From Mycobacteroides salmoniphilum (GTDB lineage: Bacteria > Actinomycetota > Actinomycetes > Mycobacteriales > Mycobacteriaceae), in contig NZ_CP024633.1 in assembly GCF_004924335.1 (NCBI RefSeq), positions 620,001 to 684,000 on the forward strand: a stretch of DNA of 64,000 nt, given 5' to 3'. The position numbers and the translations under genes were made by a program. This document shows, piece after piece, positions 31,075 to 33,357 of the stretch (position 1 is the first letter of the stretch; each line of letters begins with the position of its first letter). The notes below the pieces were generated by a model, which ran no database searches, was not told the DNA's origin, and worked only from the letters and a program-made list of their open reading frames with translations.

Positions 31075-31380
31075 CTAGGCCTCGATCTTGATGTCGACCT
31101 CGTGGATGCCGGCGCCGGTGGGGCTCACCGTGGCCGTGCCGTTCCCGGCCGAGGACAACGCGCGCAGCGTCCAGTCGCCCGGTGCGGCGAAGAACCGGAA
31201 GTCGCCGGTCGCAGACGCCACCACCTCGGCGGTGAATTCATCGGAGGAATCCAGCAGGCGCACAAAGGCACCGCCCACCGTCTGACCGTTGCCGTCGACC
31301 ACGCGGCCGGTGATCACGGTTTCCTTTTCCACGTCAACGCCCGCCGGAATGGCCAGGCCCTGCTTCGGTGCACTGCACAT
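31075..31380 (-). CDS. DUF1416 protein (SseC family)
   Basis: A 101-residue protein starting MCSAPKQGL, with a carboxypeptidase-regulatory-like beta-sandwich pattern (ETVITGRVVDGNGQTVGGAF, FVRLLDSSDEFTAEVV). It is the actinobacterial partner gene of CysA-type sulfurtransferases (SseC2/Rv0814c in M. tuberculosis). Its molecular role is unknown; thiosulfate or sulfur-transfer accessory function is inferred from constant linkage. The ATG lies two bases after the cysA2 stop, so it is co-transcribed. Confidence 0.9.
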   Translation of the reverse strand: MCSAPKQGLAIPAGVDVEKETVITGRVVDGNGQTVGGAFVRLLDSSDEFTAEVVASATGDFRFFAAPGDWTLRALSSAGNGTATVSPTGAGIHEVDIKIEA

Positions 31381-31382
31381 AA

Positions 31383-32216
31383 CTAGCTTCCCAACTCGAT
31401 CGGGGCTCCCACCAGAGAGCCGTATTCGGTCCAACTGCCGTCGTAGTTCGTCACGTTCTGATGTCCCAGGAGCTCCTGCAACACGAACCAGGTGTGCGAG
31501 GAACGCTCACCGATACGGCAGTACGCGATGGTTTCCTTTTCACCGTCCAGCCCCGCGTCGGCGTAGAGCTTGGCCAGCTCTTCATCCGACTTGAAGGTGC
31601 CGTCTTCATTGGCCGCCTTGCTCCACGGGACGTTGATGGCGCCGGGGACGTGTCCGGGGCGCTGGCTCTGCTCCTGCGGCAGGTGTGCGGGAGCCAGGAT
31701 CTTCCCCGAGAACTCGTCGGGCGAACGCACGTCGACCAGGTTCTTGGCGCCGATGGCGGCGATCACCTCGTCGCGGAAGGCGCGGATCGAGTTGTCCGGT
31801 GCGGCGGCCTGGTAGGACGTTGCGGGCCGCGAGACGGTGTCAGTGGACAGCGCGCGGCCGTCCAGCTCCCACTTCTTGCGGCCGCCGTCGAGCAGCTTCA
31901 CGTCCTGGTGCCCGTACAACTTGAAGTACCAGTAGGCGTATGCGGCGAACCAGTTGTTGTTACCGCCGTAGAGGACCACGGTGTCGTCGTTGCCGATGCC
32001 CTTGTCGGACAGCAGCTTCGAGAACTGCTGCTGATCGACGAAGTCTCGCTTGACCGCATCCTGCAGATCGGTCTTCCAGTCCAGCCTGACGGCGCCCTCG
32101 ATGTGGCCGACGTCGTACGCGCTGGTGTCCTCGTCCACCTCCACGAACACCGTGTTGGGGGTGGAAAGGTTGTCTTGCGCCCATTGGGCGGAGACCAGTA
32201 CGTCAGAGCGTGCCAT
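31383..32216 (-). CDS. cysA2: thiosulfate sulfurtransferase (rhodanese)
   Basis: A 277-residue tandem rhodanese, the same length as M. tuberculosis CysA2/CysA3. The N-terminal inactive domain (1-125) precedes a catalytic domain with LVDVRSPDEFSGK and the active-site loop AYCRIGERSS, Cys233. It transfers sulfane sulfur from thiosulfate or a similar donor to a thiol acceptor in the cytoplasm. It sits between DUF4395 and DUF1416 genes in an operon headed by a poly-Cys leader, so it is probably induced when cysteine is short. Confidence 0.95.
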   Translation of the reverse strand: MARSDVLVSAQWAQDNLSTPNTVFVEVDEDTSAYDVGHIEGAVRLDWKTDLQDAVKRDFVDQQQFSKLLSDKGIGNDDTVVLYGGNNNWFAAYAYWYFKLYGHQDVKLLDGGRKKWELDGRALSTDTVSRPATSYQAAAPDNSIRAFRDEVIAAIGAKNLVDVRSPDEFSGKILAPAHLPQEQSQRPGHVPGAINVPWSKAANEDGTFKSDEELAKLYADAGLDGEKETIAYCRIGERSSHTWFVLQELLGHQNVTNYDGSWTEYGSLVGAPIELGS

Positions 32217-32246: not shown

Positions 32247-32720
32247 TTACTGAGCCGACGGTTGTGTGCGGCGAAAACGGGTGACGAGCGGGTACAACTG
32301 GCAGCCCAGGCAGATGCCGAAGGCGGCGTTCAGGAAGGCGGCGCCCAGTGCGAACGCCGTCGCGATCAGGCCGAGCAAGGTGACGCCGGTGGCGAACCCG
32401 ATGGTTCCGACCGCGGCGAAGGTGAAACCCAGCAACTGGGCGAACTGTAGAGGCGGGATGGGCTCACGCTCGGTGACCGGGCTCAGCCTGGGCTGAATCA
32501 GGGTCCGGAAGATCGTTCCGTAGGGGGAGCGATGCGGTCCCAGCAGCGCGCCGATCGCGAACACCACCGCTTGAAGTCCCAGGATCACCGCGGCTGCAAC
32601 CGGCGACACGGCAGACACCGCCAGGGTGATGATGAGAACTGTGGTGGTGACCCACGCGACGAAGCGCGGACCGCGAACGTCAACCTGACTGATTGCGGGC
32701 GGTGTGTTGGCAGTGGTCAT
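32247..32720 (-). CDS. DUF4395 integral membrane protein
   Basis: 157 residues with four hydrophobic helices and the family's C-terminal GICLGCQLYPLV, whose two Cys (C-L-G-C) are conserved and could carry persulfide or sense redox. DUF4395 proteins are commonly encoded beside sulfurtransferases and thioredoxins; transport or transfer of sulfur across the membrane is an inference. AGGAG precedes the ATG by about 13 bases, inside a region able to pair as GGTGT/ACACC. It is the first structural gene after the poly-Cys leader. Confidence 0.88.
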   Translation of the reverse strand: MTTANTPPAISQVDVRGPRFVAWVTTTVLIITLAVSAVSPVAAAVILGLQAVVFAIGALLGPHRSPYGTIFRTLIQPRLSPVTEREPIPPLQFAQLLGFTFAAVGTIGFATGVTLLGLIATAFALGAAFLNAAFGICLGCQLYPLVTRFRRTQPSAQ

Positions 32721-32789
32721 GGGGTGTTGTGCTCCTAAGGGTGGCGGATATGGCTACACCAGGTACGGCACACTCAAAGGTGGCCGCTA

Positions 32790-32879
32790 TTAGCAGCAAC
32801 AACAACAGCAGCAGCCCGCGACGCGGCACAGATCGACGGCGCGTCGTTTAGTGAGCATCGGCTCAAGGCGGGCTTGCAC
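32790..32879 (-). CDS. leaderless poly-cysteine leader peptide (cysteine-responsive attenuator type)
   Basis: A 29-codon frame starts at GTG 32879, seven bases after a TAAACT -10, and ends in seven consecutive Cys codons before TAA; another Cys lies at residue 18. ATG 32858 would give a 22-residue version. Mycobacterial leaderless poly-Cys short ORFs upstream of sulfur genes are known to act as cysteine-responsive attenuators: slow translation of the Cys run alters expression of the downstream operon. Here the operon is DUF4395-cysA2-DUF1416, 69 bases away. The hairpins and a direct test are not established for this copy. Confidence 0.85.
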   Translation of the reverse strand: MQARLEPMLTKRRAVDLCRVAGCCCCCCC

Positions 32880-32886
32880 GGCGACG

Positions 32887-32892
32887 AGTTTA
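32887..32892 (-). promoter_or_regulatory. -10 element of the poly-Cys leader promoter
   Basis: Minus-strand TAAACT, seven bases before GTG 32879. Its first three bases are the TAA stop codon of the upstream thioredoxin gene, so a second transcript can begin exactly where that gene ends. Confidence 0.6.
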
Positions 32893-33357
32893 CCCCGGCT
32901 GCGTCATGCCCTGCAGCGCAGTGCGCAGGTCGGCGGCCTTGGGCACTCCAGAGACCCGATACGCCTGCCGTCCGGTGGCATCGAAGATGAACGTTGTCGG
33001 CAGTGACAGCACCGAGAGGACCCGCGCGGCGTCGGGATTGGCATCGATGTCGACCTCTATATGGGCCACCTCAGGATGGTCAGCCGAGACCTGGTCGACA
33101 ACTCGCCGGACCGACGCGCACGGACCACACCAGACCGCGCTGAAATGCACGATTGTCGGTCCGGTCGCGGAGAGCTCGATGCCGGGCGGGGCTTGGACGT
33201 CGTCCGTTCCGCCGGGGCCTTCGCGGAGCTTGCCGGCCCTGCTCTTGATGGCAACTGCGATGAGGCTCGACGCCAGCAGCGCGACCGCGATCACCATGAC
33301 CGCGGTCACAAAGGGCGATGAGCCGCTCTCCTGGAGAGCGGACAAACCTGACGTCAT
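32890..33357 (-). CDS. membrane-anchored thioredoxin-family protein
   Basis: 155 residues: one N-terminal transmembrane helix (about 15-37), then a thioredoxin fold facing the outside with redox motif WCGPC (Cys77, Cys80) and the cis-Pro segment LPTTFIFDATG. It matches Rv0816c (thiX) in position. The ATG overlaps the lmeA stop (ATGA). It may reduce extracytoplasmic thiols, and its neighbours suggest a link to sulfur handling. Confidence 0.88.
   Translation of the reverse strand: MTSGLSALQESGSSPFVTAVMVIAVALLASSLIAVAIKSRAGKLREGPGGTDDVQAPPGIELSATGPTIVHFSAVWCGPCASVRRVVDQVSADHPEVAHIEVDIDANPDAARVLSVLSLPTTFIFDATGRQAYRVSGVPKAADLRTALQGMTQPG

Follow-up and report, generated by a model that had tools for sequence, protein, structure and literature searches.

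The minus strand of a 64,000-nucleotide stretch of the Mycobacteroides salmoniphilum genome (hereafter referred to as the window, whose numbering is used below unless genome positions are named) carries a short leader frame that is very probably the Mycobacteroides copy of the Ms5788A-type cysteine-responsive translational attenuator. This assignment rests here on the anatomy of the locus, its conservation, its family membership and its predicted RNA pairing; the transcription start, translation, stalling and cysteine response we infer or take from what has been published elsewhere for such leaders.

Along the minus strand, an LmeA-like gene and a thioredoxin-like gene are followed by a -10 element, TAAACT (32887–32892), a GTG, a frame of 29 codons, 69 nucleotides and an operon of DUF4395, rhodanese and DUF1416 genes. 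The first half of the -10 element is the stop codon TAA of the thioredoxin-like gene (32892–32890), and seven nucleotides separate TAAACT from the GTG at 32879. The putatively leaderless ORF VQARLEPMLTKRRAVDLCRVAGCCCCCCC (32790–32879) ends in a TAA (32792–32790). It contains the codons of a core, TKRRAVDLCR (residues 10–19; 32823–32852), delimited by the anchor motif and the pN/pS values given below, and ends in seven consecutive Cys codons (32793–32813), a (TGY)7 run that occurs only once in the window when both strands are scanned, which speaks against a chance occurrence. One of these codons, the TGT of residue 25 (32805–32807), lies nine residues after Asp16, a distance that the comparison of leaders showed to be fixed; we refer to this position as D+9 and number its neighbors in the same way. 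The 69 nucleotides between the TAA and the DUF4395 ATG at 32720 include a predicted local hairpin (32765–32787), and GGTGT (32760–32756), AGGAG (32736–32732) and ACACC (32727–32723) are all present in the leader-operon interval or next to the start. The three operon genes, likewise on the minus strand, encode a DUF4395 protein (32247–32720; PF14340, 143 bits), a cysA2-like sulfurtransferase with two rhodanese stretches (31383–32216; PF00581), for which none of the NCBIfam models scored above its cut-off, and a DUF1416 protein (31075–31380; PF07210, 144 bits), which we take to be sseC-like. On re-reading, every item of the preliminary description of these sequence elements proved to be correct.

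The leader peptide scored 57.5 bits against NCBIfam NF042933 ('leader_Ms5788A', Ms5788A family Cys-rich leader peptide, equivalog; cut-off 45) and 44.6 bits against NF042934 (cis_reg_atten, 'putative leader peptide'; cut-off 27). The finding is already known in kind and in the very same operon. A 2005 comparative study (PMC1262725) had already described Cys-run leader peptides ahead of cys operons in mycobacteria. For M. smegmatis, Shell 2015 (PMC4633059) reports a conserved Cys-rich leaderless small ORF with ribosome occupancy upstream of cysA2/Msmeg_5788, and Canestrari 2020 is, according to the papers that cite it, devoted to such Cys leaders. An M. abscessus ribosome profiling study (PMC4974804) lists uORFs upstream of nirA, of a TQXA protein and of the 'membrane spanning protein MAB_0741', which, judging by map order, is probably the DUF4395 gene discussed here. 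In common with Ms5788A of M. smegmatis, the window has the operon, the leader peptide, the apparently leaderless GTG, with the spacing expected of one, and the Cys run before the stop codon upstream of DUF4395/cysA2; sequestration of the ribosome-binding site (RBS) that a ribosome on the Cys tract would block is predicted. Many Ms5788A-type relatives have a Ser-Cys tail, whereas the window leader ends in its seven Cys residues without one. With the members of NF042934 it shares the RRxVDLxRV motif and the Cys at D+9; unlike it, many of them have only one to three Cys residues and stand ahead of other genes. The earlier reading of the locus as a leaderless poly-Cys attenuator of the DUF4395 operon, in which Cys starvation would free the DUF4395 RBS, is thus supported on both counts by the NF042933 match and the published M. 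smegmatis orthologue.

Of the 111 names in our survey, two stand for the window itself (the window and L119, its own copy), and the remaining 109 are DUF4395 loci taken from other records or genomes (80 + 29, some species being represented twice). A leader-like frame was found upstream of DUF4395 in 98 of the 109 loci. The search required TAnnnT at 5–9 nucleotides from the start, so that the hexamer is present in the relatives by construction and the spacing is not; the distance was seven nucleotides in 97 of the 98 leaders and six in the remaining one. In 54/98 leaders, the end of an upstream frame no shorter than 90 codons coincides exactly with the first base of the -10 element, and the overlap of the -10 element with the thioredoxin stop codon, to which the preliminary description had drawn attention, is therefore both real and matched elsewhere. 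For the other 11 DUF4395 genes (L067, L068, L074, L083, L087, L099, L105, L106, L125, L126 and L129), the upstream DNA examined contained no frame combining the motif with two Cys residues. At least three of them (L125, L126 and L129, in genomes G253, G267 and G124) are probably paralogues, as their genomes carry a leader elsewhere. NF042933 matched 272 of the 298 sampled genomes of the order at E ≤0.01 (84 over the cut-off) and one of 14 control genomes (none over the cut-off), and NF042934 matched, at E 0.001, 199/296 genomes of the class and 15/198 of the phylum sample, with 0/14 controls in both. The nearest records, with 85–99% protein identity, are L039 and L040 (Mycobacterium sp.) and L041–L044 (Mycobacteroides); together with the window they constitute the set that we call Mycobacteroides-like (n=7). 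The other group names (Streptomyces-type, Rhodococcus-like and so on) are provisional guesses based on sequence and genome size, families and genera being labeled only as f and g.

The anchor R[RC]xVxLxR was present in all of the 98 leaders analyzed, as was a Thr at D-6. A degenerate leader that failed the motif filter (L072) lacks the anchor, although its +9 codon also reads TGT; it was dropped, together with L119, before the codon and structure counts. Start assignment is weak for L079 and L121. Among the 61 non-redundant leaders, pN/pS was 0.27 in the core (TxRRxVDLCR) and 0.88 in the first residues. It was 0.22 within the mycobacterial set and 0.32 between this set and other members of the order. 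The Streptomyces-type set gave 0.60 internally and 0.63 against the mycobacterial set. As judged from these substitution ratios, the TxRRxVDLCR segment is under amino acid selection, and the constraint is weaker within and against the Streptomyces-type set.

In the minimum-energy fold of the window, Cys codons 4–7 and the stop codon (32804–32790, the putative anti-RBS strand) form 13 pairs with 32738–32725, a ribosome-binding region with AGGAG inside it (UUAGGAGCACAACA; 32725–32738, minus strand) that is predicted to be sequestered in this way. The modeled cost of opening the RBS was 9.1 kcal/mol with the tract free, and 3.9 kcal/mol with the tract covered; 30 random tracts averaged 5.3 kcal/mol, and not one of them was as high as the native value. 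The stability of the whole fold was no better than that of shuffled sequences (z -1.07 and 0.03 for two folds). The same description had assigned sequestration to GGTGT and ACACC arms around AGGAG. The arms exist as sequence; their role as the sequestering element is not supported, as it is the Cys tract with the stop codon that pairs with the AGGAG region in the fold, and a GGTGT/ACACC pairing appears only once the Cys tract has been removed from it. GGTGT was found in 6/7 Mycobacteroides-like sequences, and ACACC near the start codon in only 1/7, the window itself, so that the proposed arms are not a conserved element. The earlier description was right about the outcome and wrong about the base pairing.

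We evaluated the same pairing in the relatives, leaving out L079, in which no Shine-Dalgarno (SD) sequence was found, from the 60-locus counts of pairing and opening cost. At least one base of the RBS region was predicted to pair with the tract at a probability above 0.5 in 58/60 loci. The mean opening cost was 10.8 kcal/mol with the tract free, 6.2 kcal/mol with the tract covered and 6.6 kcal/mol with random tracts. Opening was costlier with the free tract in 48/60 loci, and covering made it no cheaper in the other 12. At most one of 30 random tracts reached the native value in 36/60 loci, whereas the native tract did not stand out in 24/60; the close relative L041, with an opening cost of 4.7 as against 5.4 for random tracts, showed no predicted excess. 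Covering the tract lowered the pairing probability of the SD sequence by more than 0.1 in 25/60 loci and raised it in 9/60. The longest Watson-Crick helix between tract and RBS averaged 6.7 pairs, as compared with 4.0 in control stretches within the same gene, and this advantage narrowed to 7.8 versus 6.8 when G-U pairs were allowed. Against dinucleotide-shuffled RBS stretches, the helix was superior at the 0.05 level in 22/61 loci (23/61 by duplex energy).

Consensus folding showed almost no covariation (a double change in 2/21 pairs), which is to be expected of a long-range helix whose 5' strand is fixed as Cys codons. In an alignment that took in 37 of the 61 non-redundant leaders, CAACAG stood immediately 5' of GAG in most sequences; the window and L042 instead had ACAACA 3' of AGGAG. 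The window pairing accordingly covers AGGAG and its 3' flank, in contrast to the 5' side used by most of the aligned Ms5788A-type relatives, so that the pairing partner appears to have moved with the logic retained. We also considered whether the order of TGC and TGT in the poly-Cys tract is tuned to strengthen the pairing, and rejected this: when the codons were permuted, 0/61 loci reached the 0.05 level by energy or helix length, and when the Cys codons were redrawn at 75% TGC, 3 to 5 of 61 did so. TGT is enriched overall in the 61 leaders (238 TGT, 195 TGC) relative to 51 long ORFs of the window (52 TGT, 158 TGC). A run of regulatory codons has likewise been proposed to pair with the SD box in the LEU element of actinobacterial leuA, according to the 2005 study (PMC1262725). 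That element differs in responding to leucine and in including a pseudoknot, and the same text cites experiments in which altered leucine codons had no influence on regulation.

In the mechanism that we propose for the window, a leaderless mRNA would begin at the GTG at 32879. With ample Cys-tRNA, the ribosome would complete the leader and depart, and the freed Cys codons 4–7 with the stop codon would pair with UUAGGAGCACAACA and hide the DUF4395 RBS. With Cys-tRNA scarce, the ribosome would sit on the Cys codons and mask the anti-RBS strand, so that DUF4395-cysA2-DUF1416 could be translated. In such leaders, stalling of ribosomes within the poly-Cys tract is reported to block the structures that sequester the RBS. 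Counted from the first base of its P-site codon, a ribosome extends about 15 nucleotides downstream. With the D+9 codon (32807–32805) in its A site, its leading edge would therefore lie near 32795 and 9 of the helix's 13 pairs would be masked, a geometry that would fit a conserved peptide slowing the ribosome at one wobble-read Cys codon.

The Cys at D+9 was present in 98/98 leaders selected by context (66/66 distinct peptides). At the neighboring positions, Cys was found in 91 (D+7), 95 (D+8), 74 (D+10), 97 (D+11) and 80 (D+12) of the 98. Matches to the HMM, mainly from other families of the order, had Cys at D+9 in 39/40 cases, the exception (L263) not looking like a leader; Streptomyces-type frames had it in 17/20, and by a hand count it was the only Cys from the motif on in 10 of these 17. 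The HMM ends at or just after D+9, so that residue counts are biased in the sets gathered with it and unbiased only in the 98 context-selected leaders; codon counts are free of this bias, as the HMM sees only protein. The D+9 codon was TGT in 45/45 distinct leaders of Mycobacterium/Mycolicibacterium, 3/3 of the Mycobacteroides-like set and 8/10 of the Rhodococcus-like set, the other two having TGC. Outside the poly-Cys groups, we collected 84 distinct RxxVDLxR leaders from Actinomycetes (excluding L263, L200, L201 and L210, and counting L199 and L209 as nirA leaders). Cys occurred at D+9 in 81 of them, always encoded by TGT, while their other Cys positions comprised 16 TGT and 111 TGC. Another 57 distinct leaders, which served as a second sample (40 newly taken and 17 from the class-wide NF042934 scan, with eight mycobacterial loci among 25 new ones left out), had 55 TGT, one TGC and one Ser codon at D+9, and 7 TGT and 65 TGC at other Cys positions; TGT at D+9 extended over 21 of 22 family labels (hand count). 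The only TGC was in L336 (LVVRRHVDLRRVSSALCRAT). For both samples, the stretches were chosen from longer lists for family spread with the codons unseen. Fisher values of 6e-42 and 4e-27 for the TGT bias are overstated, as the rows share ancestry. This codon regularity is new here, and it raises the possibility of a single fixed UGU sensor codon on which the Cys run is an elaboration. A partial literature search, in which subscription journals were thinly covered, turned up no precedent for such a sensor, which may nonetheless be in print.

Related leaders also occur elsewhere in the same genome and ahead of other genes; their next-gene starts were assigned by a simple rule that may have misplaced some of them. 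A genome-wide search for (TGY)5 gave 13 overlapping matches at six places. Among the five besides the window, only that at genome position 197643 is leader-like; the other four were rejected as poly-Cys leaders, having no start codon behind a -10-like hexamer. The leader at 197643–197744 (plus strand; L216) consists of TAGACT, 6 nucleotides and an ATG frame of 33 codons that ends in five Cys codons and has no VDLxR, which means that a Cys run can occur without the motif. It stands 94 nucleotides before the next gene, which may be the TQXA-domain gene of PMC4974804. An NF042934-type leader, LVARRHIDLKRVCSACCLPY (genome 1538424–1538374, minus strand; L150/L221), with TGT at D+9, lies 103 nucleotides upstream of a sulfite/nitrite reductase gene (nirA-like), which the gene downstream of L192 resembles by eye. 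In L158–L187, the core LTKRRAVDLCRVA is shared, but CLCRPVI-like ends replace the Cys run; most of these leaders stand about 200 nucleotides ahead of a cysA2-like gene, and no DUF4395 was seen in the interval. Their expression platform may differ, as pairing of the D+9 UGU with the RBS is predicted in none of them (0/30). Streptomyces-type leaders and others with one to three Cys residues, L192 among them, precede genes of several further kinds, namely those for a luciferase-like monooxygenase (L191), a ThiS-family protein (L193), an SsuE-type FMN reductase (L213) and a 2OG-Fe(II) oxygenase (L198).

Several other accounts of the leader have to be weighed. We consider it possible, rather than probable, that the leader is a sensor assisted by its nascent chain, in which the RRxVDLxRV segment, once inside the exit tunnel, would delay the ribosome on the D+9 UGU and so make this codon very sensitive to Cys-tRNA; the poly-Cys run would have been added later and would double as the anti-RBS strand. 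Such a sensor would account for the invariance of Cys at D+9 while D+7, D+8 and D+10–D+12 vary, for TGT at D+9 in 81/81 and 55/56 cases as against 16/127 and 7/72 elsewhere, for the Streptomyces-type leaders in which the D+9 Cys often stands alone, and for amino acid constraint in the presence of synonymous change (0.22 and 0.32 in the mycobacterial comparisons). On the other hand, the poly-Cys frame at 197643 in the same genome lacks the motif, and the constraint is weaker in the Streptomyces-type comparisons (0.60 and 0.63). The edge of the HMM biases the outgroup residue count, the difference between 98 at D+9 and 95 at D+8 or 97 at D+11 is small, TGC does occur at D+9 (two Rhodococcus-like leaders and L336), and some other codons are also near-invariant, so that selection at the RNA level is possible. 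In arrest peptides of the TnaC/SecM type, the spacing between conserved residues and the stalling codon is fixed. The window leader is alike in having residues under amino acid selection at a fixed distance from one codon; stalling is a proposal here, and the signal, unlike theirs, would be the supply of Cys-tRNA. Extended to the class, and with equally guarded credence, these comparisons of sequences could mean that Actinomycetes share one ancient sulfur-gene leader sensor, in which RRxVDLxRV primes a pause at a single wobble-read UGU at D+9, and that the mycobacterial poly-Cys run is a later elaboration into an RBS-hiding strand and not the sensor itself.

It is unlikely that the D+9 UGU is kept only for pairing with an ACA beside the downstream RBS, with the conservation of the peptide being secondary. 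In many mycobacterial leaders and some of the Streptomyces type, CUGU and ACAG can be seen as complementary stretches, and pairing of the UGU with the RBS was predicted at above 0.5 in 8/19 Streptomyces-type loci and in 1/3 nirA leaders. However, the corresponding figure was 0/30 in the f15 group (6 distinct leaders, all with the UGU, the next-gene start being set by the simple rule), and in the window the helix that would sequester the RBS starts just 3' of the D+9 codon and does not include it. As far as these folds can tell, RBS pairing alone does not explain the D+9 UGU.

Transcription attenuation governed by translation of the leader, with an intrinsic or a Rho-dependent terminator, is highly improbable: although it was proposed for cys leaders in 2005, that study itself grades its Rho prediction as weak (PMC1262725), the pairing predicted here centers on the RBS, and a scan of 32600–33000, which is blind to Rho, gave no intrinsic terminator such as the hairpin with a U run that a classical attenuator has between leader and first gene. 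With E values up to 10 admitted, an Rfam scan of the same interval returned six matches, none of which came near its gathering score. That the 29-residue peptide acts in trans, for instance as a thiol or metal-binding peptide, is hardly credible in spite of its being Cys-rich and conserved, given that its position is tied to the DUF4395/cysA2 operon and that related leaders before other genes often keep just one or two Cys residues.

The preferred reading of the locus, a cysteine-responsive translational attenuator of the Ms5788A type, makes it a published switch, here in another mycobacterial genus. The regularity at D+9, where leaders keep TGT at one Cys position although they mostly use TGC elsewhere, could matter more than the locus itself. 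If it is true that the D+9 codon and the peptide preceding it constitute the sensor, these attenuators would be codon-specific and peptide-specific devices, not counters of Cys codons.
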